Source of the DNA: a virus
Virus record (IMG/VR): IMGVR_UViG_3300007540_000076
Span: 1-28,385 of that record
Strand: one strand, 5' to 3'
Length of the DNA stretch: 28,385 nucleotides
Shown: positions 1,449 to 27,754 of the stretch, in pieces
How positions within the stretch are numbered: the first letter of the stretch is position 1
Layout: each line of letters begins with the position of its first letter
Position numbers and translations under genes: made by a program
Notes under the pieces: model-generated
The model's database searches: none
What the model saw: the letters and a program-made list of their open reading frames with translations, nothing else
Told to the model about the DNA's origin: nothing

Positions 1449-1765
1449 TGGGAACACCACATCCACTGACTACACAACAACAAGTATTAAATAATATATC
1501 AGGAGCAGGTGGTTACGATTTAGTAACGAATGCTACTGTTAATGCAAATATCTATGTAGCTATTACAGTATTGGTAGGTACAGAAGTTATTGCAGATAAC
1601 ACAGCTTCGGGTACAGTAACCGCAGTTTCAACCGATACAGATGTATGGGATAGCTTATCTACAGTAGAAGTACCGATGGGTACTACAATTTATGGTAGAT
1701 GGAATTCTATTACAATCGGTGCAAATGATACAGCTATCTGTTACAGGGAATCAAGCACTACGTAA
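1448..1765 (+). CDS. Beta-rich small protein, unknown, possible virion component
   Basis: 105 residues, rich in Thr, Val, Ala, Ser and Asn in alternating patterns typical of beta strands, with no signal peptide. This composition is like that of head-decoration or fibre-base proteins, and the segment VPMGTTIYGRWNSITIG looks like a strand-turn-strand unit. It is coupled at both ends by TAATG overlaps. An imperfect copy of the recurring palindrome (1608-1622) falls in the codons for S54-G55-T56-V57. A structural role is inferred from composition alone. Confidence 0.6.
   Translation: MGTPHPLTTQQQVLNNISGAGGYDLVTNATVNANIYVAITVLVGTEVIADNTASGTVTAVSTDTDVWDSLSTVEVPMGTTIYGRWNSITIGANDTAICYRESSTT
1608..1622. 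repeat. Imperfect copy of the CGGGTAC palindrome
   Basis: CGGGTAC-A-GTAACCG: the seven-base arms pair at six of seven positions around one central base. It lies inside the 105-residue gene in the same codon register as the three best copies. Confidence 0.5.
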
Positions 1766-1971
1766 TGTTGGGTTGGATTACATTATTAAAATCTGTATTA
1801 GGTATTGCCGGTAAGATATTTGGTAAGTATCAAATACAAAAACATGTTGCGGATAGAAATAAGATTAAAGAATTAAGTTTCAAATTAAAGAAGCGAGAAT
1901 TAGAACGAGAGGCGTTACAACGGGTAGATGAAGAAATTACTAATCATCGTGATTATCTCAATAAGTCTTAG
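1765..1971 (+). CDS. Candidate inner-membrane spanin (Rz-like), 68 aa
   Basis: The N-terminus (MLGWITLLKSVLGIAGKIFG) is hydrophobic enough to be a short or marginal membrane segment. It is followed by a highly charged helix (about 28-60, KELSFKLKKRELEREAL) suited to a coiled coil. The next gene, a lipoprotein, starts inside this one in another frame with 44 bases shared, which is the arrangement of overlapped Rz/Rz1 spanins that fuse the inner and outer membranes at lysis. It is short for an i-spanin, and two Lys interrupt the hydrophobic stretch, so a different coiled-coil membrane protein is possible. Confidence 0.5.
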   Translation: MLGWITLLKSVLGIAGKIFGKYQIQKHVADRNKIKELSFKLKKRELEREALQRVDEEITNHRDYLNKS

Positions 1972-2176
1972 CGGTTGTTCAGCACTAAAGTTCTGGACAG
2001 CAACTGAAGACACTAATCTATATGCGGCACCAGAGTGCCCACCTGTAGAAGAGTGCAGTATTGAGAGCACCTGTTTAACTCCTGAAGATATGCGTTGTTT
2101 AGCAAAACAAAAACAAGCTTATAAGACTTGCATCTGGGTACACGAACAAGCGTGGGATGCAGTAAATACTAAGTAG
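1928..2176 (+). CDS. Lipoprotein, candidate outer-membrane spanin (Rz1-like)
   Basis: A textbook type II signal peptide: MKK, a run of Leu/Ile/Val/Ser, then the lipobox LSGC with C17 as the predicted lipidated residue. The mature part is 66 residues with five further cysteines (37, 43, 49, 57, 68) and a proline-containing acidic segment, so it is probably disulfide-bonded in the periplasm. It begins inside the preceding gene in a different frame, as Rz1 does relative to Rz. Lipoprotein status is well supported; the spanin role rests on architecture, and a superinfection-exclusion lipoprotein is a reasonable alternative. Confidence 0.7.
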   Translation: MKKLLIIVIISISLSGCSALKFWTATEDTNLYAAPECPPVEECSIESTCLTPEDMRCLAKQKQAYKTCIWVHEQAWDAVNTK

Positions 2177-2198
2177 GTTGTGGCAAAGTTGAGGAGAC

Positions 2199-3755
2199 TT
2201 GACACGCCAATACAACCTGCCTAGTGGAAATATTATGATGAGAGACTGGTGGTGGAAGGACAAAAAAATGTTAGCGTTGTGGCACAAGATACACAACATG
2301 ACCCCGGAAGAATTTGCAAATTTTGATAAAAAAGTCAAAGCAGAGTTATTATACTGGTATGGAAGTTTGTTCTTCTTTAAGCCGTATCCTGCACAACAGC
2401 CTATTGTGGACGATGACAATTATAGTGTTTATGTGCATGGTAACAATAGTTCTGGTAAGTCATATTGTTCAGCGGCTGTTACAGCGTACAATGTAATTGG
2501 ATGGCACCCTAACTATGAGATGCCAACACCTAAGTATGGAGATAGAATAATCTGGGCATTTAGTCCTTCATTTGATATACAAAGAACTTCTAGTCAAGTT
2601 CACCTGTTCTCTACGGATACACCTAACAGTATTGGATTATTGCCGAGCATTGAGTCAATAGAAAAACGTGGCGGTAAAGTAGCATGGGGTAAAAACAGAT
2701 GTATTGACTTTGTTAAATTTTGGGACGGTACATTACTTGAATTTAAATCTGCTGAAATGAAGACACAGAACCTACAAGCTTCTGGTATTGATTTCTGCTG
2801 GTTTGATGAGTGTCCGTCAAATGTAATGCATGATGAGATTCTAGCTAGGTTGCTTAGAAAATCCGGGAAAATGATTATGAGTTTCATTGTCGAGGACGCA
2901 ACTAGCAATTACATAGCACAAGATTTGTATAGTAAAAACAAAGAAGACAAAGATACTTCGTTTCATTTTATTGATGTATACGATAACCTGTCCTTAGATA
3001 AAGAAGAGATAGAAAGATATAAGAAAAGATTTACTGAGAGTGCAATGCACTGGCGATTTAGTGGGGGCGGTAAGTTCCAGTTACAACCAACCGGTCAAGT
3101 TGTTTACCCCGATTTTTGTGAGCAGCATGTGTATGATGATTTAGTTGACCAGTATGACCCGCTACGTACAGTATGGAGAGCTTGGGATTTAGGATATACC
3201 CGCCCAGCTTGTGTTGCTTTTCAAATGAATAAACATGGACATAAAAATATATTGTATTCTATATTAGGAAAGAACGTACAATTAACAGACTTTATCGACC
3301 AGGTAGTTACGTATGAAAAAGAGATAATGCCTGAAGTACAGTCTGCAATGGATTTACTACCACATGATGCCAACAGGAAATATGACGTATCACCGGAAAC
3401 TAGTGCGATGATATTTAAACGAAAAGGATTGAACACGGACGTGGTATACGTAAAAAGAGATACAAGTGTAGTATTAACTAACGAAGAATTAAAAGAATTT
3501 AACTCGGGAGTGCCTAGTTTAAAGTTTGACTCTAAACATTGCAGCATCTTAATCCAAGCGTTATCTGCTTACACTAGAGATGATGCGGGTGTTCCAAGAC
3601 GGGATAAATACTTTGAGCACGTTTCGGATGCGTTTAAACTCGGTTTGTTTTACATATCCAAAAAATTAGTAAACGACCAAGAGTTACCTGTAGAGGAACC
3701 TCAATATTATACGGATAACTTTGATACGCCTACCAGAGAGAGGATATTTAATTGA
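2199..3755 (+). CDS. terL: Terminase large subunit (packaging ATPase/nuclease)
   Basis: 518 residues, a full-length TerL, the motor that pumps DNA into the prohead and cuts it. The ATPase half has Walker A GNNSSGKS (81-88) and Walker B ending in D203-E204 (FCWFDE). The nuclease half has an RNase-H-like fold with D330 (WRAWDLGY), D390 (LLPHD) and D477 (HVSDAFKLG) as likely metal ligands. The start is uncertain: TTG at 2199 lies only two bases after GAGGAG (2191-2196), closer than usual, while in-frame ATGs at 2235 and 2238 lack a good ribosome binding site. No longer start is possible because of an in-frame stop at 2190. The gene ends in a TTGA overlap with the portal gene. Confidence 0.95.
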   Translation: MTRQYNLPSGNIMMRDWWWKDKKMLALWHKIHNMTPEEFANFDKKVKAELLYWYGSLFFFKPYPAQQPIVDDDNYSVYVHGNNSSGKSYCSAAVTAYNVIGWHPNYEMPTPKYGDRIIWAFSPSFDIQRTSSQVHLFSTDTPNSIGLLPSIESIEKRGGKVAWGKNRCIDFVKFWDGTLLEFKSAEMKTQNLQASGIDFCWFDECPSNVMHDEILARLLRKSGKMIMSFIVEDATSNYIAQDLYSKNKEDKDTSFHFIDVYDNLSLDKEEIERYKKRFTESAMHWRFSGGGKFQLQPTGQVVYPDFCEQHVYDDLVDQYDPLRTVWRAWDLGYTRPACVAFQMNKHGHKNILYSILGKNVQLTDFIDQVVTYEKEIMPEVQSAMDLLPHDANRKYDVSPETSAMIFKRKGLNTDVVYVKRDTSVVLTNEELKEFNSGVPSLKFDSKHCSILIQALSAYTRDDAGVPRRDKYFEHVSDAFKLGLFYISKKLVNDQELPVEEPQYYTDNFDTPTRERIFN

Positions 3756-5548
3756 ACGAAAAAAACATTATTAAGTTCCATGCACATTTAGTAGCTCAAG
3801 CATCGCCTGAGTTTCAAAGTGCTACGGCTGATTGGAAAGAGAATATGCGATTCTATATGGATGAGTATAATTTTCAAAACAAGATAGATTGGCAAACTAA
3901 AATCAAAGACCCGATAGTAGACAACTTAGTAGTACGTATGTCTAATTTCTTTGTAAGGATATTAATGTCTACAGATAACAAGTACTTTACTGTAGAACAC
4001 ACAGATAAGAAAGTACAATCTGGGCTAAACAAATTATTAGAACAATCATTAATACACAATAGATTTCCGTTAGTATTTGGAGATGCACTTAAAATGGCAC
4101 TACTAACATCTCCGTATATTACTAAGATTAAATATACTTATAAAGAAGAAAGCTACCCGCAGTATAATGAAACAACGGGAGATATAGAATCAGAAGAATC
4201 AATAACAGGAAGAGTAAACATTGAACCTGTAAGTCCATTTAATATTATGGTTGACCCTAACGGTGATAACTATATTATTGAATCTAAGTCTTGCTCTGTT
4301 GCAGACTATCAAAGTTTAGCAAGAGTAAACAATTGGAATAAAACAAAAACAATACTACAAGAATCTGTAAATAAAGCACAAGGAAGCGATGAAGCATATG
4401 TTACAGATGTTAAATTAGACTACGTATATAGTAAATTCATCTCTGACGAACAGGGACGAGTATTAGATACAAACATACATTACGTAATAGTAAACAAAAA
4501 ACATGTTGTCTATTACGGAAAAAATACATTACCAAATGGGAACTTCCCTTACTGTATGGGATTCCCAATGAAAGTTTTACAAGGTCGTTATGGCAGGGGT
4601 TATATTACAAAATTAAGAAGCCTGTTAAGTTCATATGTCGAAAGTATGAATCTTCTGCTCGATGCATTTACAATATCTACACTGGGCGTGTACGAAGTTG
4701 TAACTAGCAATATCGAGTCAGGTAAAGCCCACTTGTTTGGCTCTGTAGTTCCGGGACGTATGTATCCGGTTTCAGCCCCAAACACAATCAATCAGGTGTA
4801 TAACAATTCGTTAAACCCAAATGCTGTAAACCTTTTATTCACAATAGATAGACTTATTCAAAATAGGTCTTTCCAAAATGAGTTCTTCCAAGGAGCACCT
4901 ACGTCTAAGGGTAGACCTACTGCTTCTGAAGTAGCAACTAAAACGCAAGAGACTTCAAGTTTCTTTACAGATATAGCATCTGAAATAGAACGAAGTATCA
5001 TAGAGCCGTCACTAGAATTGTTACTTCATACAGAACTTATGTACATGGACGATGATGCTCACGCACCTATGTTTACAGAAGATGAAACAGATGCGTCAGT
5101 ATTACACTTACTTTCTATGACTTTTAATGAACGAATGCAGTTGATTAAAGATGCCCGTATCCGTGTCCGAGGCATATCAGGGAAAGTACTCAAGATGAGT
5201 AACTTTAACAAGTTGATGCAAATTGTTAATGTTATTGGAAACATGCCAGAGGTTGCTCAAGCAATCGACCCGGCAAAATTTGTTCAGAGAATTTTTGAGA
5301 GTTTCGATGAATCTCCTGAAGATTTACTGAATATGGAGAAGATACAAAACGTCAACCAACCTCAACCAGCCCCGGGTACAGTACCCGAGGGAGCTCCTCC
5401 AGGACAAGGACCAGAACAAGGGATGGCTGATTTAAGCCAGATGCCAGGAATGGGAATACCAGATATGGAAGGACAAGGTAGTGAGGAAGAACAATTGCAG
5501 GAGGTACTAGCAAATGTCAGAAGAAGTCAAAACACCGGAACAAGATAG
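3752..5548 (+). CDS. Portal protein
   Basis: 598 residues, normal for a podovirus-type portal, the dodecameric ring at the unique head vertex through which DNA passes. The TTG start overlaps the TerL stop and has AGAGAGG eight bases upstream (3737-3743), which supports this unusual start. The segment GRPTASEVATKTQE (about 386-399) matches the late helical stem motif seen in many portals. The last 60 residues are rich in Pro, Gly, Gln and Met and likely disordered; the palindrome at 5373-5387 encodes P541-G-T-V-P-E546 there. TerL before it and scaffold plus capsid after it are the standard head-gene order. Confidence 0.92.
   Translation: MNEKNIIKFHAHLVAQASPEFQSATADWKENMRFYMDEYNFQNKIDWQTKIKDPIVDNLVVRMSNFFVRILMSTDNKYFTVEHTDKKVQSGLNKLLEQSLIHNRFPLVFGDALKMALLTSPYITKIKYTYKEESYPQYNETTGDIESEESITGRVNIEPVSPFNIMVDPNGDNYIIESKSCSVADYQSLARVNNWNKTKTILQESVNKAQGSDEAYVTDVKLDYVYSKFISDEQGRVLDTNIHYVIVNKKHVVYYGKNTLPNGNFPYCMGFPMKVLQGRYGRGYITKLRSLLSSYVESMNLLLDAFTISTLGVYEVVTSNIESGKAHLFGSVVPGRMYPVSAPNTINQVYNNSLNPNAVNLLFTIDRLIQNRSFQNEFFQGAPTSKGRPTASEVATKTQETSSFFTDIASEIERSIIEPSLELLLHTELMYMDDDAHAPMFTEDETDASVLHLLSMTFNERMQLIKDARIRVRGISGKVLKMSNFNKLMQIVNVIGNMPEVAQAIDPAKFVQRIFESFDESPEDLLNMEKIQNVNQPQPAPGTVPEGAPPGQGPEQGMADLSQMPGMGIPDMEGQGSEEEQLQEVLANVRRSQNTGTR
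5373..5387. repeat. Perfect palindrome CGGGTAC-A-GTACCCG
   Basis: Seven-base arms pair perfectly around one central A, inside the portal gene's disordered C-terminal tail. It is the exact reverse complement of the copy at 19214-19228. As RNA it would fold as a six-pair stem with a CAG loop. Confidence 0.85.
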
Positions 5549-6029
5549 TGGAGATACTAGGGTTAAGATAAACCCAAAGGATGCCGCTACATCTATGTTA
5601 CCTGCTGGATTGGACGCAAACAATTTAACTCCAGAACAGCAAATGAATTATACATCTACAATGGTTAAAGCATCACGTTTACACGAGAAAGCCATAGATG
5701 GATTAACACAAGAAGAGGAGGATGTGTTTAACGCATTACTAATCGCTACACCGGACGATATCGCTGTAGAAGAAAGGTTTGCTCAAGCACAGAAACTCTT
5801 TAACACTACTGTGAAAAAAGTAGAGAAAAAAGAAGAACAACCAACAGAAGGCACAAATGTTTCACCGAAAGGTGATGCGGATGTAAGTTCCAAGGTTGCA
5901 ATAAATAATAGTAATCTGTTAGAGGAAACGAATCCAGCTCCATACGGTGATGATAATGAATATTTCAAATTCTTAGAAGATAGATACAAAAAACAGACTA
6001 CTGTTAAAAGACTACAAAATAACAACTAG
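5514..6029 (+). CDS. Probable capsid scaffolding protein
   Basis: 171 residues, between portal and major capsid protein, the usual place of the scaffold that directs prohead assembly and then leaves. It is strongly hydrophilic, rich in Glu, Lys, Asp, Asn and Thr, without cysteine, and probably helical or disordered. The C-terminal helix (NEYFKFLEDRYKKQ, about 148-161) followed by a basic tail resembles capsid-binding ends of scaffolds. GGAGG precedes the start, and the gene overlaps the portal by 35 bases. Function is inferred from position and composition, since scaffolds are poorly conserved. Confidence 0.75.
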   Translation: MSEEVKTPEQDSGDTRVKINPKDAATSMLPAGLDANNLTPEQQMNYTSTMVKASRLHEKAIDGLTQEEEDVFNALLIATPDDIAVEERFAQAQKLFNTTVKKVEKKEEQPTEGTNVSPKGDADVSSKVAINNSNLLEETNPAPYGDDNEYFKFLEDRYKKQTTVKRLQNNN

Positions 6030-6045
6030 GAGGTAACTTAATATG
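6027..6045 (+). promoter_or_regulatory. Strong ribosome binding site of the capsid gene
   Basis: TAGGAGGTAACTTAATATG, with an extended match to the 16S anti-Shine-Dalgarno; the scaffold stop codon TAG forms its first three bases. An almost identical leader precedes the gene at 7011, which suggests that both products are made in very large amounts. Confidence 0.75.
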
Positions 6046-6990
6046 CCACAAGGAGCAATTAGTTATTTAAATGAGGAAGCTAGACTTGCCAAGATTAAAA
6101 TTGACTCTGATATCAGATTTCAAGCTGGTAACATGATGCAGTTCAGAAACTTGGCTAAGCCTATTAATTCCTACGGCAAGAACAAAGGTTCACAAGTTGA
6201 GATAGAAAAGTACCAAAAACTTGGCACTGCAACTGGAACAATCAGTGAACTTCAATCTTTGCCTATGCAAAAACCAAGTGTTGGGTTTGTAGTTGCAACT
6301 GTTAACGAATATGGTAATGGTGTGTCTTATACTAGAAAAGCACAGACATTAGCAGAATACTCTGTAGATGAAACTCTAAAGAAAATTCTTGCTATGAATG
6401 TCGCTGAATCTATGGATAAGATTGCTGGAACTGAATTCCAAAATGCAGATGTATTCTACACTCCAACCGGAGCAGCAGCAGGTACGTTCGATAAGGACGG
6501 TACTGTAAGTACTGGTGCAGGGGCAAGTGTTAGTGCATTCCATATTAGAGAAATTATCAAAAACATGAAAAACGATAATGTACCTAAATGGGACGGAAAC
6601 TCTTACTTAGGAGTTTTCTCAGCATTCGCAATGTCCAAACTATTCGAAGATACTGCAACAGGCGGTATTGTCGATTTACATAAATACGACCAACCAGAAA
6701 ATTTAATCAACGGTGAGATAGGTTCTTACTTTGGATTAAGAATGGTGGAAGAGAACAATGTTCTTTCTAGCACAATTGGTGGTCATGCAACGCATCAGGG
6801 TGAGGTAATCATCTGCGGGTTCGAACCTGTAGTAGAAGTATTAGCACAACCTGAAGCAACAATGATAGAGTCATGGGACTTCGGTAGATTTACTGGAGTA
6901 GCATGGAACGCACTGACAGGGTTCAAAAAAGTATGGACTAATTCAACTGACAGTGAGTATCACTTAGTTAGAATACACTCTAACGATTAA
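6043..6990 (+). CDS. Major capsid protein, N4-gp56-like (HK97 fold)
   Basis: 315 residues, preceded by the strongest ribosome binding site type in the window. The pattern of an N-terminal arm, then VATVNEYGNGVSYTRKAQ (84-101) and YSVDETLKKILAMNVAESMD (a helix after it), matches the N4-gp56 family of HK97-fold capsid proteins, in which a strand with NQYG or NEYG precedes the spine helix. The C-terminal part (about 250-300) is beta-rich, as expected for the A domain. It follows the portal and scaffold, and forms the icosahedral shell. No maturation protease is recognisable nearby. Confidence 0.9.
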   Translation: MPQGAISYLNEEARLAKIKIDSDIRFQAGNMMQFRNLAKPINSYGKNKGSQVEIEKYQKLGTATGTISELQSLPMQKPSVGFVVATVNEYGNGVSYTRKAQTLAEYSVDETLKKILAMNVAESMDKIAGTEFQNADVFYTPTGAAAGTFDKDGTVSTGAGASVSAFHIREIIKNMKNDNVPKWDGNSYLGVFSAFAMSKLFEDTATGGIVDLHKYDQPENLINGEIGSYFGLRMVEENNVLSSTIGGHATHQGEVIICGFEPVVEVLAQPEATMIESWDFGRFTGVAWNALTGFKKVWTNSTDSEYHLVRIHSND

Positions 6991-6994
6991 CCAA

Positions 6995-7013
6995 TAGGAG
7001 GTAATTAATTATG
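6995..7013 (+). promoter_or_regulatory. Strong ribosome binding site, near-copy of capsid leader
   Basis: TAGGAGGTAATTAATTATG matches the capsid leader at 6027-6045 in all but a few bases, although it is not part of the preceding coding sequence. It argues that the 136-residue product is another high-copy virion protein. Confidence 0.7.
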
Positions 7014-7421: not shown

Positions 7422-7426
7422 ATAGC

Positions 7427-8662: not shown

Positions 8663-8670
8663 GAGGAACA

Positions 8671-9362: not shown

Positions 9363-9514
9363 TGGCAAAACCAGGATTATACGCAAACATACATAAAAAA
9401 CGTAAAAGAATAAAAGCAGGTAGTGGAGAGAAAATGCGAAAACCTGGAAGTAAGGGAGCCCCGACAGCCGCTAATTTTAGGCGTTCAGCTAAGACAGCTA
9501 AGAAAAGGAGATAA
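9362..9514 (+). CDS. Small basic protein, MAKPGLYANIHKK family (50 aa)
   Basis: It begins in a TAATG overlap with the DUF6321-like gene. The sequence MAKPGLYANIHKKRKRIKAG, then SGEKMRKPGSKGAPTAANF, is one I associate with short phage proteins that usually sit next to DUF6321-type proteins. About one third of the residues are Lys or Arg. It ends in KKRR two bases before the fibre gene start, and its own last codons (AAGGAG, 9505-9510) serve as the fibre gene's Shine-Dalgarno. Function unknown; nucleic-acid binding is inferred. Confidence 0.75.
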   Translation: MAKPGLYANIHKKRKRIKAGSGEKMRKPGSKGAPTAANFRRSAKTAKKRR

Positions 9515-9516
9515 CA

Positions 9517-12002: not shown

Positions 12003-13438
12003 AGAGATTTATAAAAGATTTATCGGGTGGCTTAAATTTATCTGTACCATCACATTTAATAGGTGAGAACCAGTTATCTGTTGCAACAGATTGTGTATAT
12101 AGAAACGGTAAATGGAATAAACGAGATGGGTATGCTCAACTAGCAGCAACAACAGAAACCTCAAGTGTTATCGAAGTAGCAGACCAACTTAGGCATGATG
12201 GCGGTGCAAGACAATTAGTAGCTACTTTAGCCAGAATATATAGTTGGGATGGGAGTTCTTACTCAAGTCTTATTACAGAAGGAGTAACTCGTAGCTCCAA
12301 AGATAAAGTATTCTTTGCAGAAATAAATAATTCAATATTTAGAGTAGACGGAAAAAATGCTCCAGCAGTATCTACTACAGGTAATTTTAGTGCCGTATCG
12401 TGGGATACAAGTAGTAGCGGTAGAAATCTTACATTAGCTAAAACACTTATAGCATTTAATTCTAGAATATTATTTTTTAATGTAACTGACGGTACTGACG
12501 GTGCCGTACCTTATCGGGTACTGTACACGGATGCACTTGATTATGACAGGATATCTAATACAAACTTTGTAGACTTAGATTATTCAATGGCTCCTATTAT
12601 ATCAGCTAGAAGATTAGGTCATAATATGATAGCGGTATACAAATCAGATAGTGTAGTAACATTACAAGACCAAGGTAGCCCTTTATTTTTTGTACCTAAA
12701 GCTAGACAACAAATTGGCATCATAGGACCTAAAGCAGTAACAGATGTACCTAACTCACATTTATTTGTAAGTAATGATGGTATATATTTATTTAATGGCT
12801 CAGCAGTAGAACCTGTTGGAGATAACACTGTTGTAAACGATATGTTTGCAAACTTAAATTTTACATACAAAGATAACGTGTATTGTTGGACAGACCTTAA
12901 AAATAGAGAAGTTAATATACATTACCCAACGGGTAGTAGTGAAATACCAAACGCAGCATTAGTGTGGAATTATCAATATAATGTTTGGAGTAAATCTACT
13001 CAATCTGCTTTCTCGGGTTTTTACAAATATCGTACGGTTACAGTACCCGAGGTTTATTATGGTGCAGCAAGTGGGAGAGTACATCAACGAGATGCATCAG
13101 GAACAGACATTAGTTCAGCGATTGCTAGTACATTAGCAACTAGAGCATACCATGGTAACTATGATTTACCTCAACCAGAAGGTATGCAACCTACAGACTA
13201 TATACAGATAACTAGAGTACAAACTGACGCAACACCCTCAAGTACTACTATCTCAGTAGGTGTAGCCGATTTAGGAAGTGATAGTCCTACTTACACAGGA
13301 GAAACTATTACAGACACAGATGGTAAAGCACCCAAAGCAGATTTTAATGAGTTCGGTAGATACATAACAATTAAAGCTGCAAATTTTACAAGCGTATCAG
13401 AGTTTGTTTGTGATGTGGAATCAGGAGGAGATAGTTAG
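11999..13438 (+). CDS. Tail hub/nozzle protein, beta-propeller-like (gp10/gp12-like)
   Basis: 479 residues. The N-terminus (DLSGGLNLSVPSHLIGENQL then ATDCVYRNGKWNKRDGYAQL, residues 8-47) is the hallmark of P22 gp10-type stabilisation proteins and the related T7 gp12-like nozzle proteins, which begin with a short (S)GGLN segment and a KR(D/P)G(Y/F) turn. Blocks ALDYDRISNTNFVDLDYS and LGHNMIAVYKSDSVV (about 178-225), then SNDGIYLFNGS, fit successive propeller blades. It probably closes the tail channel and anchors fibres. The start is in an ATGA overlap with GGAGG (11990-11994) just upstream. Two degenerate palindromes lie inside it. Confidence 0.8.
   Translation: MKRFIKDLSGGLNLSVPSHLIGENQLSVATDCVYRNGKWNKRDGYAQLAATTETSSVIEVADQLRHDGGARQLVATLARIYSWDGSSYSSLITEGVTRSSKDKVFFAEINNSIFRVDGKNAPAVSTTGNFSAVSWDTSSSGRNLTLAKTLIAFNSRILFFNVTDGTDGAVPYRVLYTDALDYDRISNTNFVDLDYSMAPIISARRLGHNMIAVYKSDSVVTLQDQGSPLFFVPKARQQIGIIGPKAVTDVPNSHLFVSNDGIYLFNGSAVEPVGDNTVVNDMFANLNFTYKDNVYCWTDLKNREVNIHYPTGSSEIPNAALVWNYQYNVWSKSTQSAFSGFYKYRTVTVPEVYYGAASGRVHQRDASGTDISSAIASTLATRAYHGNYDLPQPEGMQPTDYIQITRVQTDATPSSTTISVGVADLGSDSPTYTGETITDTDGKAPKADFNEFGRYITIKAANFTSVSEFVCDVESGGDS
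12515..12529. repeat. Imperfect copy of the CGGGTAC palindrome
   Basis: CGGGTAC-T-GTACACG pairs at six of seven positions. Its codon register (CGG GTA CTG) differs from the main register, so its peptide is unrelated to that of the other copies. Confidence 0.5.
13035..13049. repeat. Imperfect copy of the CGGGTAC palindrome
   Basis: CGGTTAC-A-GTACCCG pairs at six of seven positions and is nearly the reverse complement of the copy at 1608-1622. It encodes T348-V349-P350-E351 in the main register. Confidence 0.5.
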
Positions 13439-14956: not shown

Positions 14957-15351
14957 ATGTATTTGAAGAATACATAGACAAGTATATGGAAGAAGTACAA
15001 CCAGAACAAACTCGTGAAATTATTATGCAAGGATTAGCTTGGCATGTGTTAACAGAGTTTGGGTTCGGTTCAAAGCCTATAGGTATGATAGGTTATAAGA
15101 TGGTAACATCCGGGTACACGTACCCGCATTTATATCTAGAATTTATATACATAGATAAAGCATATAGAGCTAGGTATAAATTTTGGTTAAAACGTATCGC
15201 TGATTTTTGTAAGAATTTTAGTTCTAAGAAAGTTGAGATACAAGGAACAAGAAGAACGAAACGATTAATAGAAAAAATCTTTAAGAAAAAACCGTCAGTA
15301 TTTATATATGAAATAGATGCAGATGAAGTAGGAGAACATTATGGGTGGTAA
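14941..15351 (+). CDS. GNAT acetyltransferase-fold-like protein
   Basis: I chose ATG 14941 (MSEQVDVFEEY), ten bases after GGAG (14927-14930); the in-frame ATG at 14935 is closer to it than usual. 136 residues. The order beta strand (PIGMIGYKMVTSG), strand (HLYLEFIYIDKAYRARY), helix (WLKRIADFCKNF), strand (KVEIQGTRRTKRLIEKIF) and strand (PSVFIYEID) follows the GNAT fold, with IDKAYRARY at the place of the acetyl-CoA pyrophosphate loop, though its Q/RxxGxG/A signature is degenerate. A GNAT-like protein in the gene 13 region is my recollection for T7-like phages. Enzymatic activity is doubtful. Its last codons overlap the next gene. Confidence 0.6.
   Translation: MSEQVDVFEEYIDKYMEEVQPEQTREIIMQGLAWHVLTEFGFGSKPIGMIGYKMVTSGYTYPHLYLEFIYIDKAYRARYKFWLKRIADFCKNFSSKKVEIQGTRRTKRLIEKIFKKKPSVFIYEIDADEVGEHYGW
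15111..15126. repeat. CGGGTAC palindrome with a two-base centre
   Basis: CGGGTAC-AC-GTACCCG: perfect seven-base arms with two central bases instead of one. It is read in a third codon register (TCC GGG TAC ACG TAC CCG), giving S-G-Y-T-Y-P. As RNA it would be a six-pair stem with a four-base loop. Confidence 0.75.
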
Positions 15352-16816: not shown

Positions 16817-16817
16817 T

Positions 16818-19070: not shown

Positions 19071-19083
19071 GTTAGGAGAATAT

Positions 19084-22000
19084 ATGAGTAGTTTTCAAGA
19101 TAGATTAAATATGCCAGACGAGGATAATACACCCACAGGTGTTGTACCTCTTGATGACAAATTAAATCAAAAACTTCTAGACCTACAAAACAAAAACAAT
19201 ATGAGTATAGATTCGGGTACTGTACCCGAGATATCCATGGACGATAGTATTGTTTCTGCGTCTCAAATAGATAACAATAAACCACCTTCAAATTTATTAG
19301 GCAAACTTCGAGATACTTTTGCTGAGTCAGAAAGTTTTACGGGTGTTGCTGACTACTTAAATAATACTTTTCCTAATATAGACAACTTAGAAAATATTAA
19401 CGACCCAACTGTGTTACAATCATTTGCTTCTGGTTTACTACAAGATGTATCTGTGAATGAAATAAAAGATTATGGTGACCGAATTGCTGGAATGAAAACA
19501 GATGGAACTTACGATGAGAATAGTGACCTACTGCAAAAAATTAATTCTGGTGTATTTGGTATTGGTGAACTAATCCAATTTATGGGCATAATGAAAGTAG
19601 CTCGTGCAGGAGCTGGTCCTACAGCACAATTCCTTGCTGCAAAACGTATCATTGATGCAAGTAGTCGGTTTATTAATCCGTCTATAACAAAAAATGTTGC
19701 TAAATTTATTCCGGGTTCTACTGCTCGAAAACATTTTGTTGGAGTTGCAAGAAATCAAGGAGAAGCTGTTAGAATTGGAACTGCGTTTTTATTAGAAACT
19801 GGTTTATGGAAATCACTTAATCATTCTACTACTGAGGCTGCTTTGTATGCAGGAGGTTTTCCTCTTGCTTTTAATAGCTACATAATACCCGGTATAAAAA
19901 CTGCATGGAAAGGTGCAAGTGGTTTTGTTAAAGGAAAAAGCAACCGTAAAGGCGAAACAAGTATTGTACCTCAAACAACTGATGATGGTCAGTTAATTCC
20001 ATTAAATAATATTAAAGAAATACTTAATTTAAGTAAAAAAGAAATTGAAGAAGCACGTAAAGTTTTACCTAAAAATGACGGAAGACATGTTTTATTTGAT
20101 GAAATAGAAAAACTACAAACTAGTGATAAAGCTACTATACAAGAAGTTACTGGATTAATTAAAGGATTAGAAATAGATACAAAACAATTAATAAACACTC
20201 ATAACAAAGAATTAGTAGGATTGTTTAACGGATTAAGTGGACAAGAAATTAAAGTAATATCAGGACAAACTGTTGCCGGTTCAGGAAAACAAACTGAAAA
20301 AATTATGTTAAAAATACAGAATGCACATAAAAAACGGTCAGCAGAATTTTTCGAAAGCAGTCTTAATGAATTTGATAACATACTTAATAAATTTGTAGAT
20401 GACAGTTTGCTAGGATTAAATAGTAAAACAATGAAATTTGATGCTACAACAATTCAAACAATTGAAAAAAATATTATAGGAGACTTAGAGCAGTTGTTAC
20501 TTACTGATGCAAATCCTGTATTAAGAAACATGTTTGCTTTAGGTAATTCTGCAAAAAAAGGTGTTAAACCTTACGCTATATTTAACGGATTCAAATCTCA
20601 AATACAACGTAAAATTAGACATAAGATACAAACTCGAGGAGTTGCAACTCAAGAAAACTGGTTTAGGAATATAGGTATTAATGCAAAAAATACTGACGCT
20701 GACAATATTGATATAATAAAAAGCACTGTAAATAATTTATTAAAAAGTGGAACTCAAATTTTTAATACTAAAACTACATCCCAATTAGAAACATTAGGCA
20801 CAGTAATAAAACAAATTAAACCAAAGATAACTAAAGAACCCAGAGGATTTAATTACAATAGAAAATTAGACAAATACGAACAAACATCAACAGTGAATAT
20901 TGTCACTGTACCAAAGAAAACTTTGGATAAAATTCTTAACATGAATGATAAAGAACTGTATGCTTTAGGTAGAGATTTTAATTTATCTCTTACGCAAATA
21001 TCTAGAGCAATTAAAGATTTACAAAAACATGTAAAGGAATCTACTCTTGACGGAAAGTCATTAGGTCGGATGGACTTCTTTAACTTAAAAAGAGAAAAAG
21101 GTATGTATTATTTTAGTGGAAAACATGGCGGTATGCAAATTGCTAGTTTATTAAATACAATTAATAAATTTACAAGAAGTAAAATGTATAAGAATATAGC
21201 AAAAGAAGGTACAACAAGTTACATTGCTAGACGTGTTTATAATAAAGGTGCTGCATTAGGTAGGCAATCCAAATTAAACCAAACACAAAAAACTATAACA
21301 CGAGCAGAAGGACGTACACCTGTTCAAGAAAAATCCGCTACTATAGCTTCACGAGAAGCTAAAGGGTTTATACAAAATTTAACTGACCGTGCAACTTTAG
21401 CATACTATGGCTTAGACCCATCAGACTTACGAAACTTTACAAAAAGATTAAAAAAACGTCAAGCTGGAATAGATGCAATAGAAGAAAAATTTTCAAAAGG
21501 TTTTTATGAAGCAAGTATGGGAGGTCCTAAACAAAAAATAATGAGGCTTGAACAAATTTTTAGTCAGTTAAAAGATAAGTCTCGAGTTCTTGGCGGACAT
21601 TTTGATGTATTCAATAAATTAAGCGATTTGAAAACAGCAGTTAAAATGGTATCAGAATATAATTCTACTAACGCAACTCTTAATGGTAGCAAAGGATTTA
21701 ACGTATTTACAAAAGATTTGGAAGCAATATTAAAAAAGGTAGATGGAGCTAAACGTAGCACTGAAAAAGTTGATATAGCTATGCAAAGAGACTATAACAA
21801 TTTTGTAGCTAATTTTAATAAATCTGCAGATAACAGTCATGTTATGGTACAAGATATACAAGATGTGATGATAGGTTTAGTTGAAAGTACAGGGCTTAAA
21901 AAAGACATTATGACTCGAGCTTTGCCTAGTGTTTTCAGGGCGTTAAATGATTTTGTTAAAACTGATATGGCTACATTATATGGAAAATTATCTCGTAGAG

Positions 22001-25000
22001 TAGAACAAGGAAGTCAAAAATTTTCTGAACAATACCAACCTTTAGTAAAAAATATACAAGAATTTTTGGCAAAAGGAAAAGTAGACGAAGCAGAAAAATT
22101 CCTAGCATCTGCCATTATTAAAGACAGAAAACTACAGCAATTTCTTGTTAAAGACAACTCTCCGTTCGGTGAATTGTTATTATTACAAAGAGCTATGGGA
22201 GACCCCGGATTACGTAGTGTCTTAAAAGAAACTATATTAAGAAACAAAAACCATACTCATATGTTGGATATAATGAAAAAATTAAATCAATTTGTTAATC
22301 CTAAATTTTTTGGGGATGTGCCTACTACTGGGGCAAACATACAAAACATGTCTACTATGCTAGGAGATAGTCAGTTAAAAGGTCAAGGTGGTGTCTTTGG
22401 TAGATTCTCAAATTACTTCTTTACTGAAATACATAACATAGCTAGAAGTTCTGGAGATGATTCTTTATCATCAGTTAATAATTTAATATCTGATTCAATA
22501 CAAAAATTACAACGTCTAACTTCAAAAGGTGGACCTATTGATTTGGATGTAATAAATTACAATAAAGGATTAGACGCTGCTCTTAAACAAATTAACAAAG
22601 GCAGAAATGCAGCTCAACAAATGACAGTTAAAGATGTAGACGATATAATTGTAGCATTGGATAAACTTGAGACAGAGGCTGGTGGAAAATTAGCAAAGTC
22701 TGTTGATTACTTAAAAGCTAAAGATTCTATAATGGGTAAATTACCTGTAGAAATTAGACAAGTTATAGATGATTTTTATGACTTAACTTGGAAACATGCA
22801 GAAGCATATAATGATGAAATTAGAAGACTACAAGCTTTATTCAAAACTAATAATGTGTTTCCTGATACAGGTACAGCAGTCCCTTGGCGTAAAGGTTTAG
22901 GGGACGAATTACAAATTATTGAAAGAAGAGAAAATTATTTTCCACGATTTACAGACAGACAAAACCAAGAGACTTATGAAATATACTCACAAACTATTGG
23001 TGCTGGTGGTAAAAAAGGTCCTGTAGTTCGAGTACATGACACAGTTAAGTCATTAAAAAAAGTACACGAAGTTATTAGAAAACATGTTGATAACAAAGCA
23101 TTAGGAAAAGACGAAAATATTGTATATAGTTTTAAGGTCAACCAACCTATGGCTAATGTTGGTGGTGCAGATGGGATACCTCGTTCCAGGTTAAATTTAG
23201 TATTAGATGATATGGACCAAATGACATCTATGGACCATAGGGCAATACAAAAATTACTAGATGACGGTACATTTAATTATGAAACTTTCTACCACAAAGC
23301 TTTTGTGTCTGGACCTAGTATGGTAAAGAAAAGATATAATGTAGACGGAGCTTACGAAACTAACCACATAAAAGCATTAGAAATTTACTTAAATCGAATT
23401 GTTCGACACACGTCTATGTTGGAAGCAGTAGTAAAATCAGATTCATTGTTAGCTTATTATTCTAAGACACCTCCTTTATTTCAAGGCGGAATAAATGGAA
23501 TTGGGTCAATGAAAGAATACATACCTTATTTGTCCCGTATGATTGATGAAGCTCTTGGTAGACCATCCACAACTACTAAACAAGTAAATGATGCTATGAA
23601 TGAATTAATTAGTACAGGATTAAAAAAAGTAGGTATCAATACAAATACTAATTTTGACATACGTACTTTGGTTAATGTTAATAATAAATACAATTACTTC
23701 TCACAATTTGCATCCAACATTGCTGCCGCATTTATTCAAACAAACATGGCGGCTACCTCAGTTGTACCATCGTTGGGTAAACACGCAATAAAAGGAATCC
23801 TTAATAAAGATGCTATTCGATTAACTCGAGACGTTGGTCGATTTAATGCTATGAAACAAAAAGCATCCACACTTCCAAATATCAAAAGCATTGCAAGTAA
23901 ACATGAAAAATATTTTGAAAAGATGCGAAAAGAAGAACCAGAAAAATATCAAATGATAGAAGATATCCAAGAGTTATATACACACAACAACTTAAATCTT
24001 GATAGTAGTGGTGCTCTATTACTAGCCGATACTTTTGTATCTCAAGTAGGAGGAACTGGAGCTAAAGGATTTGTAACAAGAAATTGGGACAGGTTGGGTG
24101 AAGTTGTAAATTATGCTACTAAACCATTTAAGAAAGGAGATGAGTTGCCTAGGAAAATGGCAATTAGAGCAGCTTATTTGTCAGCCGATGATGTCTTTAC
24201 AGATGTAGTAAAAAAACTTAATATTCTAGGTCTTGATTGGAAAACAAAAACTTACAATGTTAACAAAGTATTAAGTATGATACGTAATGCAAAAGGTATG
24301 TCAGCCTTAACTCCTCTAGAAGAGAAAGCTATGAGCCTAATAGTTAATTCAGAAGCTAGAACCTTTATGAAAAAAGGAAGATATGAATTCGCTAAAAAAG
24401 TAAGCAAGGGAGATAAATACACTTATCAAACAAATCGAGACTTTAAGAAAGATTTAGCTACTAGATTTCAAGAAGATACAAACCATTTATATAATGTATC
24501 GCACAACACAGCCTTTATGAATAACCAAGTATTAAAATCCTACAACCTATACAAAAAATTTGCTGTTAAAGAGTTTGGCAGAATAACAGGATTGTTTCAA
24601 AAACAAGATTACAAAACTGCAATGGGTTCTTTGTTGGGTTATGGAGTCCTTGGTGGTGCTATAGGTGTTCCATTCGGAAAAGATTTATTAGCTCTGTATT
24701 CTTGGGCATATAGAAGTACAGCAGGTATCTTTGGGACTGAACGTGGATTACCTTCAACTGGGGCAATAGACCCAGAGTTCACTTTACGAGCATCCGGAGA
24801 TAATTGGGTTAAAAACTTAATTGGTTTCGGGGTAGGAGCCACAGCCGGTGTTGATTTAACATCATCCAGTAGTGTGGGTTTAGGTACTTATTTTGACCCT
24901 CGTGGTAAAGGGTTTCTTTATGGTAAAGGTGCTGTAAGCAAAGGTCTAGATTTTGCTGCAAACGTAGCTTTAGGAGATACTTATATTAGGTTAAGTAAAT

Positions 25001-25707
25001 TTTTACAAACAATGTTTAATCGTCCTGTTACTATAGCATCAGAAGCTATGGTAACTGACCATGAATTTGGAGCAGATGCAGCTTATGAAAACATAGAAAC
25101 AAAAGAAAACATTAGATTGCTTGAAGGTGTATCTCATTTGTTTCCTGGTTCAAAACATGTGTTTAATGCAATAGCTGCTATATACGGACAAGGACCTATG
25201 AATTATGAAGGTAAACCCTCTGACGTATACAACGCCTTAGCAAGAGACGAAGACGGTACCCTGGATAAAGGTTTCATATTTGCAAAAGGACTTGGTTTCA
25301 CTAGTATGGACCAAAAATTATTTGACCAGAATAAAAGTGGTATTCGTAAACAAAGATTAAATGAAGTTCTTAGAGTAAGACAAGAAGCAGGTATCAGGGA
25401 AGTAATACTTTTACAGGGAGAAATTGAAAAGTTAAAGTACTTCCAACCAGAAGGGTATGAAGATGATATAGATGCAAATCTAACAGAGATAAAAGAAATT
25501 AGTGAGAACTTACAACTAAGTAGAGAACAAATTAAAAATGAAGTAGTAACAAAAGGAATAGGTGCTGGAAGATTAATAGAACGAGGTGGAAATATTCTGG
25601 AAAAACAAGAGAAAAAAAATCTTATAGACGAAGGTTACATAGATAAAAATACAGGAAGATTTATTAAACAAAAGGAAAGAATCAAAAGACGACAAGAAAG
25701 AAAATAA
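19084..25707 (+). CDS. Giant internal virion/DNA-ejection protein (2207 aa)
   Basis: A single uninterrupted reading frame of 2207 residues (about 245 kDa), nearly a quarter of the window, with TTAGGAG just before the start. It is Lys-rich, mostly helical and contains no cysteine. Hydrophobic or amphipathic stretches near 156-190 (FGIGELIQFMGIMKVARAGA), 1544-1565 (NIAAAFIQTNMAATSVVPSL) and 1846-1875 (MGSLLGYGVLGGAIGVPFGK) could insert in membrane. The segment RRENYFPRFTD near 1280 resembles large phage internal proteins. I see no lysozyme (SLT) signature of T7 gp16 and no RNA polymerase motif of the N4 kind. It is probably the largest ejected protein, which lines the DNA entry channel. The palindrome at 19214-19228 encodes S44-G-T-V-P-E49. 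Confidence 0.75.
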   Translation: MSSFQDRLNMPDEDNTPTGVVPLDDKLNQKLLDLQNKNNMSIDSGTVPEISMDDSIVSASQIDNNKPPSNLLGKLRDTFAESESFTGVADYLNNTFPNIDNLENINDPTVLQSFASGLLQDVSVNEIKDYGDRIAGMKTDGTYDENSDLLQKINSGVFGIGELIQFMGIMKVARAGAGPTAQFLAAKRIIDASSRFINPSITKNVAKFIPGSTARKHFVGVARNQGEAVRIGTAFLLETGLWKSLNHSTTEAALYAGGFPLAFNSYIIPGIKTAWKGASGFVKGKSNRKGETSIVPQTTDDGQLIPLNNIKEILNLSKKEIEEARKVLPKNDGRHVLFDEIEKLQTSDKATIQEVTGLIKGLEIDTKQLINTHNKELVGLFNGLSGQEIKVISGQTVAGSGKQTEKIMLKIQNAHKKRSAEFFESSLNEFDNILNKFVDDSLLGLNSKTMKFDATTIQTIEKNIIGDLEQLLLTDANPVLRNMFALGNSAKKGVKPYAIFNGFKSQIQRKIRHKIQTRGVATQENWFRNIGINAKNTDADNIDIIKSTVNNLLKSGTQIFNTKTTSQLETLGTVIKQIKPKITKEPRGFNYNRKLDKYEQTSTVNIVTVPKKTLDKILNMNDKELYALGRDFNLSLTQISRAIKDLQKHVKESTLDGKSLGRMDFFNLKREKGMYYFSGKHGGMQIASLLNTINKFTRSKMYKNIAKEGTTSYIARRVYNKGAALGRQSKLNQTQKTITRAEGRTPVQEKSATIASREAKGFIQNLTDRATLAYYGLDPSDLRNFTKRLKKRQAGIDAIEEKFSKGFYEASMGGPKQKIMRLEQIFSQLKDKSRVLGGHFDVFNKLSDLKTAVKMVSEYNSTNATLNGSKGFNVFTKDLEAILKKVDGAKRSTEKVDIAMQRDYNNFVANFNKSADNSHVMVQDIQDVMIGLVESTGLKKDIMTRALPSVFRALNDFVKTDMATLYGKLSRRVEQGSQKFSEQYQPLVKNIQEFLAKGKVDEAEKFLASAIIKDRKLQQFLVKDNSPFGELLLLQRAMGDPGLRSVLKETILRNKNHTHMLDIMKKLNQFVNPKFFGDVPTTGANIQNMSTMLGDSQLKGQGGVFGRFSNYFFTEIHNIARSSGDDSLSSVNNLISDSIQKLQRLTSKGGPIDLDVINYNKGLDAALKQINKGRNAAQQMTVKDVDDIIVALDKLETEAGGKLAKSVDYLKAKDSIMGKLPVEIRQVIDDFYDLTWKHAEAYNDEIRRLQALFKTNNVFPDTGTAVPWRKGLGDELQIIERRENYFPRFTDRQNQETYEIYSQTIGAGGKKGPVVRVHDTVKSLKKVHEVIRKHVDNKALGKDENIVYSFKVNQPMANVGGADGIPRSRLNLVLDDMDQMTSMDHRAIQKLLDDGTFNYETFYHKAFVSGPSMVKKRYNVDGAYETNHIKALEIYLNRIVRHTSMLEAVVKSDSLLAYYSKTPPLFQGGINGIGSMKEYIPYLSRMIDEALGRPSTTTKQVNDAMNELISTGLKKVGINTNTNFDIRTLVNVNNKYNYFSQFASNIAAAFIQTNMAATSVVPSLGKHAIKGILNKDAIRLTRDVGRFNAMKQKASTLPNIKSIASKHEKYFEKMRKEEPEKYQMIEDIQELYTHNNLNLDSSGALLLADTFVSQVGGTGAKGFVTRNWDRLGEVVNYATKPFKKGDELPRKMAIRAAYLSADDVFTDVVKKLNILGLDWKTKTYNVNKVLSMIRNAKGMSALTPLEEKAMSLIVNSEARTFMKKGRYEFAKKVSKGDKYTYQTNRDFKKDLATRFQEDTNHLYNVSHNTAFMNNQVLKSYNLYKKFAVKEFGRITGLFQKQDYKTAMGSLLGYGVLGGAIGVPFGKDLLALYSWAYRSTAGIFGTERGLPSTGAIDPEFTLRASGDNWVKNLIGFGVGATAGVDLTSSSSVGLGTYFDPRGKGFLYGKGAVSKGLDFAANVALGDTYIRLSKFLQTMFNRPVTIASEAMVTDHEFGADAAYENIETKENIRLLEGVSHLFPGSKHVFNAIAAIYGQGPMNYEGKPSDVYNALARDEDGTLDKGFIFAKGLGFTSMDQKLFDQNKSGIRKQRLNEVLRVRQEAGIREVILLQGEIEKLKYFQPEGYEDDIDANLTEIKEISENLQLSREQIKNEVVTKGIGAGRLIERGGNILEKQEKKNLIDEGYIDKNTGRFIKQKERIKRRQERK
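19214..19228. repeat. Perfect palindrome CGGGTAC-T-GTACCCG
   Basis: Seven-base arms pair perfectly around a central T, extended to eight by the flanking T (19213) and A (19229). It is the exact reverse complement of the copy at 5373-5387 and lies in the disordered N-terminus of the giant protein gene. Confidence 0.85.
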
Positions 25708-25717
25708 GGAGGGTATT

Positions 25718-25909
25718 ATGGATATAATGAGTTATGTGCCTTGGGTACTAACAGGTGCTATGTCAATTGGTGGATATTTATTTAAGAATAAATACGGTCA
25801 GTTCAAAGTTATCATTGAAACATTTGTAGATATGATTGAAGATGACAAGGTTACACCAGAAGAGTTAGACACTTTTATGAAAGAAGTAAAAAAACTATTA
25901 GGAAAATAA
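25718..25909 (+). CDS. Small membrane protein, possible holin (63 aa)
   Basis: Very good ribosome binding site AAGGAGGG. One hydrophobic N-terminal segment (SYVPWVLTGAMSIGGYLF, residues 5-22) is followed by a charged C-terminal helix with DDKVTPEELDTFMKEVKKLL. A single membrane pass with a charged tail fits a small class III-type holin, or a membrane anchor for the neighbouring peptidase. No family recognised. The alternative start at the second Met (residue 4) would leave the membrane segment intact. Confidence 0.65.
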   Translation: MDIMSYVPWVLTGAMSIGGYLFKNKYGQFKVIIETFVDMIEDDKVTPEELDTFMKEVKKLLGK

Positions 25910-25910
25910 T

Positions 25911-26264
25911 ATGGAAGTTATACACTGGATAGATTTAGGTGATTTTTATCGACCAATTGAAGTGATAATTATAGATAAAGATGCCTTAGAACAAAAAGCA
26001 AAAGAGCTTGGTGTCTATGATGACGGTGATATAGTAGAAGGTCTCTGGGTTAGCAATGACCACAGTATCTATGTTAGCTCAGAGCCTGTACACAATACCG
26101 CTGAGTTTGTTTTGTTACATGAATTAACACATGCGTTTGACGATTTATGTGACGCACACACAGAAGAAGAAAATCAAGTTGATTGTAAGGCTGGTTTGTT
26201 AGCGGGGTTTTTAACGCACAACCCTAAGTTAATAGAGGCAATTAGAAATAAGGAGTTAGTATGA
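25911..26264 (+). CDS. HExxH metallopeptidase, possibly ImmA/IrrE-like
   Basis: 117 residues with a clear zinc motif: H70-E71-L72-T73-H74 (FVLLHELTHAFDD) at the start of a helix. Downstream EEENQVDCKAGLLAGFL (86-102) would supply the third ligand, Glu86-88, by analogy with the E-x-E-A-N-x-FA block of ImmA/IrrE (M78) peptidases. The strand before the helix (GLWVSNDHSIYVSSEP) also fits that fold. It is shorter than typical ImmA, and M78 members cleave repressors. Here it may instead act on host regulators, in maturation or in wall degradation. It has no signal peptide. It is coupled to the next gene by an ATGA overlap. Confidence 0.72.
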   Translation: MEVIHWIDLGDFYRPIEVIIIDKDALEQKAKELGVYDDGDIVEGLWVSNDHSIYVSSEPVHNTAEFVLLHELTHAFDDLCDAHTEEENQVDCKAGLLAGFLTHNPKLIEAIRNKELV

Positions 26265-27754
26265 GTTACGAACACATTAAAAGACGTATAGTAGAACACA
26301 ATGATATGTACTATGCAATTGACTATAGAATTTGGGATGAGAAAAATAACACATACAAGATAATTGAAAATGATGCTGAAGCAAAACGTGGTGTCGCAAA
26401 CAACTTAGTAGAAACTATACATGTTTTTGAAACAAAAGACCAAGCCGATAGGTACGATGAACGGCAAAACAAATCACCACAAGGTGCCAATGATGCATTA
26501 CAATTTTATTGGAAACAATTAGAAGAAAGCCCAGAGTATGATACTTACACACGAAAGATGGTAAAAAACGCACGGCTAGGCGGTAGACCACCTGTTGTAC
26601 TTAGTGACCAAACAACAGATAGATTTACTGGCGACAGAAAAAAATACCATGATATAAGTATATTTGATGCTGTAAATAAAGGTGCTACAGTAAGTGTTAC
26701 TGATAAAGATGACCGTGGTCCTACAATAGGTAAAGCTATAGGGGCACAAAAACACACATTTTTTGAAGATGAGGGTGTTCCAATAAGTAACATAGAAAAT
26801 TACGTAGGAGGTATGTTGGGATATTCTAGTTCTGGTTATGGAAAATTAAACCCAGAAACTATGCAATATAAATACAATGTAGGTGACCCGTTGTACGATT
26901 CTACTGCTGCCAATGTGTTTTCTTTTCTTAAAGAAATGATGTTTAATAACAAATCACACAATATATTTTACGCAAGAAATACTCGATACGATGGGTATGC
27001 AGAAAAAGAAGAAGGTAAAAGTTATGAAAATTTAGTTGATTCTTATCTAGAGGATGCTCATAATTTGATACATAAAAATAAAGAACATGTACCAGAGTTT
27101 GAAAAAGGAACTACTCCAAATACTCTAGAAAATATACGATTACATTTAGTTGCTCAAATATTATTAGAGAACGATTACCGAGCTAAAGGTGACCCAAACA
27201 AGATAGCAAGAGATTTTAATTCTGATGCGACTTATAAACGGGATGTAGAAATAAATGTATTGAAATCATTACCGTTTCTTACCGACATACTTGAACAAAC
27301 TGAGAAATGGATAATGACAAACGAAGGGTATGAACGAGGTTATGCTGATGTTGCTATTGCTAATCCACAAGATAGGGGAGCTTTACTAGACACTATAAAT
27401 AAAGCATTAGATATTGAGTTCAAAGATAATTATAAACCTATTAATACAGGATTTATACCTGAACATGTAAGAGAAGTATACAAAAACTTACCCCCAGTAC
27501 ATGCAACAAAAGCAAAAAAGAAAATGGAAAGCAACATTCCCGAACATACCGATGTAAATGCAGTGTTAAAAAATGCCAGAGAAAGAACAAACAAACGTAC
27601 AAGACCTACTAATATGCATGGACGAGTAGCCGATGTACAAGTGGATAACTCGGGTATTGTACCCGAGCCTGGACCACCACCAAAAGATGTAAGACCAAAT
27701 CTGTTTAATAAATTTATGGAATCTGTCGGTAAAATGGGAGTAGGTAAAAGATGA
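26261..27754 (+). CDS. Unknown 497-aa protein, cysteine-free
   Basis: It starts in an ATGA overlap with the peptidase gene. No signal peptide and no membrane segment. The sequence is polar and Asn/Asp/Lys/Tyr-rich, with a structured part up to about 380 and a likely disordered Pro/Arg/Lys-rich tail (from about 400; PPPKDVRPN near the end). There is no cysteine in 497 residues, the same unusual feature as the three putative ejection proteins upstream. It could therefore be a fourth protein carried in the capsid, but that is inference only. I recognise no enzyme motif. The palindrome at 27651-27665 encodes S464-G-I-V-P-E469 in the tail. Confidence 0.72.
   Translation: MSYEHIKRRIVEHNDMYYAIDYRIWDEKNNTYKIIENDAEAKRGVANNLVETIHVFETKDQADRYDERQNKSPQGANDALQFYWKQLEESPEYDTYTRKMVKNARLGGRPPVVLSDQTTDRFTGDRKKYHDISIFDAVNKGATVSVTDKDDRGPTIGKAIGAQKHTFFEDEGVPISNIENYVGGMLGYSSSGYGKLNPETMQYKYNVGDPLYDSTAANVFSFLKEMMFNNKSHNIFYARNTRYDGYAEKEEGKSYENLVDSYLEDAHNLIHKNKEHVPEFEKGTTPNTLENIRLHLVAQILLENDYRAKGDPNKIARDFNSDATYKRDVEINVLKSLPFLTDILEQTEKWIMTNEGYERGYADVAIANPQDRGALLDTINKALDIEFKDNYKPINTGFIPEHVREVYKNLPPVHATKAKKKMESNIPEHTDVNAVLKNARERTNKRTRPTNMHGRVADVQVDNSGIVPEPGPPPKDVRPNLFNKFMESVGKMGVGKR
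27651..27665. repeat. Palindrome variant CGGGTAT-T-GTACCCG
   Basis: The arms pair over eight bases (CTCGGGTA with TACCCGAG, 27649-27656 and 27660-27667) with TTG between. The one change from the other copies is in the central triplet, so an RNA stem would be fully kept. It lies in the disordered tail of the 497-residue protein gene. Confidence 0.75.

Follow-up and report, generated by a model that had tools for sequence, protein, structure and literature searches.

What is the function of a GC-rich palindrome that recurs inside gene after gene of a viral genome? The window analyzed here is the whole of IMG/VR record IMGVR_UViG_3300007540_000076 (28,385 nt), which still represents only part of a phage genome. 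It contains the palindrome CGGGTACnGTACCCG in six copies with at most one mismatch, together with one copy having a 2-base centre; allowing two or three mismatches adds no copy to the six. The palindrome is enriched, selected at the DNA level, specific in sequence to each class of related phages, conserved in placement, and switched in concert between close relatives. We consider it likely that these palindromes form a dispersed operator array of a phage regulator, which would bind them as a dimer and silence transcription. The seven window sites, all located correctly by the initial annotation, are as follows:

1608..1622: CGGGTACAGTAACCG, one mismatch, within a 105-aa open reading frame (1448-1765)
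5373..5387: CGGGTACAGTACCCG, perfect, 3' end of the portal gene
12515..12529: CGGGTACTGTACACG, one mismatch, virion gene 11999-13438, in a different codon register
13035..13049: CGGTTACAGTACCCG, one mismatch, virion gene 11999-13438
15111..15126: CGGGTACACGTACCCG, 2-base centre, gene 14935-15351, in the third codon register
19214..19228: CGGGTACTGTACCCG, perfect (17 bp counting the flanking T..A), start of the 2207-aa gene 19084-25707
27651..27665: CGGGTATTGTACCCG, one mismatch, 3' end of gene 26261-27754

The annotation had argued that such a repeat is not a product of chance, and the shuffling experiments bear this out. Dinucleotide shuffles of the window yielded a mean of 0.19 copies at up to three mismatches, compared with the six observed. 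In 500 synonymous-codon shuffles, the means were 0.002 perfect copies and 0.064 copies with at most one mismatch (maximum one each), against two and six, respectively. A de novo scan of all 4096 six-base half-sites, combined with spacers of 0-4, ranked GGGTAC-n-GTACCC first at 10^-14, while the next unrelated palindrome reached 10^-5 and one simulated sequence 10^-4. The palindrome is thus an outlier by about nine orders of magnitude. As had also been noted, the codon register is not constant: five sites share one register, and those at 12515 and 15111 take the other two. The isolated half-sites reported at 178 and 18832 did not hold up, as two were seen where about one is expected. The former belongs to another element, TACGGGTACTTACAA at 175-190 upstream of the small terminase gene, because class D phages (defined below) conserve this stretch as well despite having another palindrome; it is perhaps a packaging site. 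Across IMG/VR, the exact palindrome occurs nearly always as single copies in unrelated contigs, which therefore represent background. In two other contigs (L045, 3845/3935, and L022, 3422/3512), an exact copy is accompanied by a near copy 90 bp away.

A second record, IMGVR_UViG_3300017697_000099 (denoted as G001), matches window positions 1-9696 at 99.97% identity (G001 coordinate = window + 14220) and adds 14.2 kb leftward of the window, giving about 42.6 kb in combination. Its left part encodes the replication genes polA, primase, helicase, and nuclease on the minus strand. After a divergent control region, the plus strand carries a gene denoted as R, followed by the small and large terminases, the portal, and the late genes. 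The left part contributes eight further sites, so that 15 copies of one short motif are dispersed through transcribed DNA:

G001 599, 1616, 5786, 7778, 12508, 12735, 12853, 13165: palindrome sites of the left part
G001 13288-14028, plus (late) strand in class A: gene R, 246 aa, with counterparts in classes B, C, and D

The palindrome had been described as recurring inside genes across the late region. Sites do occur there, but they are confined neither to genes nor to that region: four of the eight left-part sites cluster within 0.7 kb adjoining R, around the divergent early control region.

Relatives were collected through searches with the large terminase, the small terminase, the helicase, and R, and were scanned for palindromes without a preset motif. 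All sequences are metagenomic contigs, chimeras among them, and the six motif classes found do not amount to six independent trials. Terminase matches in cultured phages all fall below 31% identity. Each motif-bearing lineage possesses its own palindrome, significant at 10^-10 to 10^-36 by composition:

Class A, CGGGTACnGTACCCG: the window, G001, G002, G018
Class B, GGGTAC n or nn GTACCC: G003 and the right part of G004
Class C1, TCGGTACnGTACCGA: G016
Class C2, TCGGGACnGTCCCGA: G009
Class D1, GCGGGAnnnTCCCGC: G010-G013, G021
Class D2, GTCGGGAnnnTCCCGAC: G019, and one site in G020

The class specificity of the motif is clear. In class B (G003/G004), 2-base centres are the predominant form near R. 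The class D2 palindrome has multiple copies only in G019 among the matches listed from IMG/VR (80 contigs), and three more distant relatives (G014, G015, and G017) yielded no comparable GC-rich palindrome in the scan. The arrays differ in extent, with four sites in class C and about six in class D1, all within the early half. An array that runs on through the late genes is characteristic of class A; class B has a site in the portal gene and one in a tail-side gene. Two of the records, G004 (L096-L100, 83,747 bp) and G011 (L104-L106), apparently each hold two different related phages and look chimeric or concatenated, because each has two terminase and capsid regions.

The placement of the sites is conserved across classes. 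A site lies about 30-110 bp upstream of R in classes A, C, and D1 and in G004 of class B. Another lies 24-33 bp upstream of g23 in classes B, D1, and D2 (119 bp in G010), and a third lies 11-14 bp upstream of g11, immediately before the Shine-Dalgarno sequence, in classes A, B, D1, and D2. Classes C1 and C2 share a site at the equivalent position before the helicase gene, and class A phages have a site 12 bp upstream of g14. The polA gene carries an internal site in classes A, D1, and D2, located at alignment column 154 in identical codon phase. The codons read TCG GTT ACA GTA CCC G in class A, TGC GGG AGA TTC CCG C in D1, and GTC GGG ATA ATC CCG AC in D2, where the protein is longer by one residue. 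The encoded peptides are SVTVP in class A, CGRFP/SGKFP in D1, and LVGIIPT in D2. Three palindromes therefore occupy one codon position with differing peptides, indicating that the DNA word is kept and not the peptide.

Evidence for a common reader comes from G009 and G016, whose helicases are 98% identical and whose small terminases are 100% identical over 160 aligned residues. All four of their sites are homologously placed and all differ by the same symmetric pair, CGGGAC/GTCCCG versus CGGTAC/GTACCG. The left half changes from G to T and the right half from C to A, with no other change in the sites. The flanks differ at 1/91, 4/91, and 19/91 positions for three of the sites, while the fourth has a nearly identical left flank and an unalignable right flank. 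Without a common reader of the sites, eight substitutions that match and fall on one symmetric position cannot be explained, and the two-fold symmetry with symmetric covariation of the half-sites (4/4 sites) is that of operators of dimeric repressors.

Within class A, the sites themselves diverge slowly. In eight homologous in-gene sites compared between the window/G001 and G002/G018, 2 of 121 site bases differ (1.7%), whereas 104 of 1191 flanking bases do (8.7%; Fisher p = 0.0018). The site at 1608 is unchanged in its G002 homologue, with flanks differing at 13/150 positions, and that at 13035 is identical in G018 though its flanks differ at 18/150. The site at 12515 is likewise identical in G018, and the homologous place is empty in relatives with other motifs. 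At 5373, the palindrome is kept in G002, G003, G004, and L056, with outer bases that vary by class and with differing flanking codons and indels. The codon shuffles, the slow divergence of the sites, the polA position, and the concerted switching support selection at the DNA level, one of the two levels that the annotation had offered; the other, RNA, fares less well, as described below.

These observations bear directly on the alternatives. A single reading register is common to five of the seven sites in the window, as would be expected if a peptide (S-G-T-V-P-E) were conserved or a short palindromic element of the Rickettsia type were spreading within genes. The other registers, the intergenic sites, the differing polA peptides at one codon, and the codon shuffles contradict this, and the spreading element is further disfavoured because homologous places align without an inserted segment. 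We assign this explanation almost no probability, and for the whole set of sites it is refuted. The number of copies, 15, and the identity of the small terminase in two phages with different motifs speak against a packaging site. The small terminase was also considered as the binder of the motif and was rejected, being 100% identical in G009 and G016.

An RNA hairpin in the transcript, serving as a nut-like antitermination site or a translational operator, would account for perfect inverted repeats in the early leader and just before Shine-Dalgarno sequences. On the transcribed strand of class A, however, the 30 non-Watson-Crick cells comprise 6 G.U, 10 A.C, and 14 other combinations, showing no wobble preference. 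The central (loop) bases are not conserved, and the stem is nearly invariant inside a class and shifts in concert between classes. We therefore regard a hairpin as very improbable. Still more improbable are hairpin promoters used by a virion RNA polymerase of the N4 type. The phage does encode a protein of virion size (2207 aa), and hairpin-capable sites lie near gene starts. That protein, however, has no match to sequences of solved structures or to PHROG and only sub-threshold Pfam similarity, the centre of the palindrome is not conserved, and standard sigma-70-like promoters are present. The RNA polymerase family PF00940 gave no match, but no control matched either, making this search uninformative.

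Partition or genome organization, in which a ParB/SopB-like protein would occupy dispersed palindromes, has a precedent in the plasmid prophage N15, whose SopB/parS sites are palindromic, dispersed in phage genes, and part of a ParA-ParB system. Palindromes of 14-17 bp dispersed in genes in 4-15 copies would suit such a function, which the annotation had listed as a segregation site. Unlike in N15, no ParA-type ATPase (PF13614) was found in nine records, although the controls matched in 14 of 14 cases. The sites concentrate around the early control region and ahead of start codons, and R shows no ParB domain. This possibility thus appears quite improbable, though somewhat less so than a hairpin. 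Among the roles originally suggested, the dispersed dimer operator of the stoperator kind fits best.

If the palindromes are operators, R is probably the protein that binds them, as judged from its position and behaviour. It is situated between the early operon and the terminase genes, beside the site cluster, in every motif-bearing phage covering that region (in class D2 only its C-terminal portion, where contig G019 ends), and both R and the motif are absent from G014, G015, and G017. R is also the fastest-evolving shared protein between G001 and G002, with 41% identity, compared with 59% for the next and about 90% for most (range to 99%). Between G009 and G016, R differs at about 30 residues. 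The motif class is linked to R by synteny and divergence, and R is a putative regulator. The model of type I R has pLDDT values of about 75-92 over residues 20-150. Searches with R by tblastn in 50,697 phage records and in bacterial genomes gave no match.

The relation of the sites to transcription suggests how they might act. A predicted early promoter of the sigma-70 type (TTGACT/A-16-TATACT or close) is conserved ahead of the early operon in all classes. No palindrome overlaps it. The first one lies downstream of the inferred start by about 80 bp in class D, 109 in C, 120 in B, and 156-158 in A, and more sites follow inside the operon. We propose that a phage-encoded DNA-binding protein recognizes the palindromes sequence-specifically as a symmetric dimer, with one CGGGTAC half-site read by each subunit. 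The sites would form a dispersed array whose core surrounds the early control region and R in every lineage. This core includes the sites upstream of R, those in the early-operon leader about 80-160 bp past the promoter, those before Shine-Dalgarno sequences between early genes, and, in classes A and D, those inside polA. In the window lineage, the array continues through the late genes and would silence late transcription too. The bound protein would most likely block elongating RNA polymerase, in addition to acting at promoters, because the majority of sites are in transcribed DNA, past the promoters. Its specificity would change often, with all sites following. Binding would repress, and the array may provide immunity or a timed shut-off.

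The same array might instead serve a strictly lytic phage, in which the protein would act as an activator or early-to-late switch from about -50 to -65, the remaining sites titrating it or shutting early genes off. A predicted promoter, TTGACA-17-TAAACT, has a site centred at -53, -52, -56, and -55 in G001-G004, predicted promoters near R have sites near -60, and no integrase was found. Most sites, however, lie in genes or just before Shine-Dalgarno sequences, with no known promoter at a matching distance, and without immunity-type selection it is harder to see why the specificity should switch so rapidly. We consider this reading unlikely, albeit the least unlikely of the alternatives.

Several observations weigh against a repressor array read by R. 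All promoters in this analysis are predictions, and the activator-like arrangement just described, centred at -52 to -56, is present in the type I phages. The coexistence of 1-bp and 2-bp centres is unusual for the operator of a rigid dimer. R has no match in Pfam or PHROG, its type I model has no fold match in the PDB or BFVD, and only a poor model was obtained for type III. Compared with one another, the three R types lack significant similarity (hhalign probability <1%), and R is encoded on the late strand in classes A and B but on the early strand in C and D. Further early genes are likewise limited to motif-bearing phages, and presence or absence alone therefore cannot single out R. The tyrosine integrase family PF00589 had no match in fragments covering most of the genome, serine recombinases not having been searched, and classical lysogeny is therefore not supported.

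The early leader has features of its own. After the promoter, a region rich in ACTAG/CTAGT repeats (L091, about 865-1052, and its counterparts) is conserved in all classes and could be an origin or the site of a second regulator. Directly downstream of the first palindrome lies an element of about 90-100 nt that is conserved and appears structured:

L091 751-853, minus strand: leader element
L092 11440-11546 and 11559-11652, plus strand: leader element, two copies
L116 11710-11816, minus strand: leader element

The element is duplicated in G002, and its closing stem shows paired changes from AGCAACTG..CAGTTGCT to AGTGACTG..CAGTTACT. It is absent from the sister phages G011, G012, and G019, and Rfam searches, this element included, gave no match.

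Elsewhere in the window, a small protein (328-594) preceding the small terminase has weak, sub-threshold similarity to sigma-70 region 2 and is also found in most relatives examined, with or without the motif. A small gene at 9072-9362 is about 78% identical in DNA to a gene of the Methylophilales phages MEP401/402, far above the remainder of the genome. Two late proteins of very large size, encoded at window 16818-25707, share only 25-36% identity with their counterparts in L165 (G018), while their neighbours reach about 90%; they form a swapped module, perhaps of ejection or host-range proteins.

Taken further, the findings would describe an integrase-less family of marine phages with genome-wide roadblock palindromes that are read by a protein of unknown fold and control self/non-self recognition in superinfection. 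Its specificity would have switched several times among the six classes, the operators being rewritten in concert and the proteins of essential genes bent to fit. We offer this broader picture tentatively, as it is somewhat less likely than not. The operator reading itself would place a stoperator-like array outside the phages with characterized arrays, in uncultivated marine phages in which no integrase was found. The sites also show that coding sequence, including a fixed DNA polymerase codon, yields to the presumed operator. Natural pairs, above all G009 and G016 with four sites and one symmetric base-pair change, would make regulator specificity and regulon evolution directly testable.

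The closest known systems are the stoperators of Cluster A mycobacteriophages such as L5 and Bxb1, repressor sites that occur throughout the genome and within operons, with few at true promoters (PMC6550527, PMC9283540). They are 13-bp, asymmetric, monomer-bound sites oriented with transcription in temperate phages with a known repressor, and their sequence follows the repressor (PMC6550527, PMC9283540). As with stoperators, the sites described here are scattered and class-specific, and syntenic sites differ in sequence between relatives. Their layout downstream of the early promoter is also that of elongation-blocking stoperators (PMC6550527). Unlike stoperators, they are symmetric palindromes of 15-17 bp, R is an orphan without a known fold, and no integrase was found. 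The array is not classified as stoperators because the defining asymmetry and orientation with transcription were looked for and the sites proved symmetric.

The T1-like phages Stevie and TLS contain 22-bp repeats that their authors liken to stoperators (PMC4319613, PMC11447400). These repeats resemble the present sites in their regular placement ahead of genes, and the phages carrying them are considered lytic. They differ in being asymmetric, oriented, and mostly intergenic, with an unknown binder and an unrelated sequence. The C1 operators of phage P1 likewise combine one repressor with many genome-scattered operators, which are 17-bp and asymmetric, and the repressor family is known. Repeated concerted switching of homologous sites is not known from P1. 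Literature searches, which did not extend to subscription journals, turned up no such array in pelagiphages and no paper on phage-wide palindromic operators. In comparison with these systems, the working of the array would be of the known, stoperator-like kind, and its new aspect would be palindromic dispersed operators with repeated switches of specificity.

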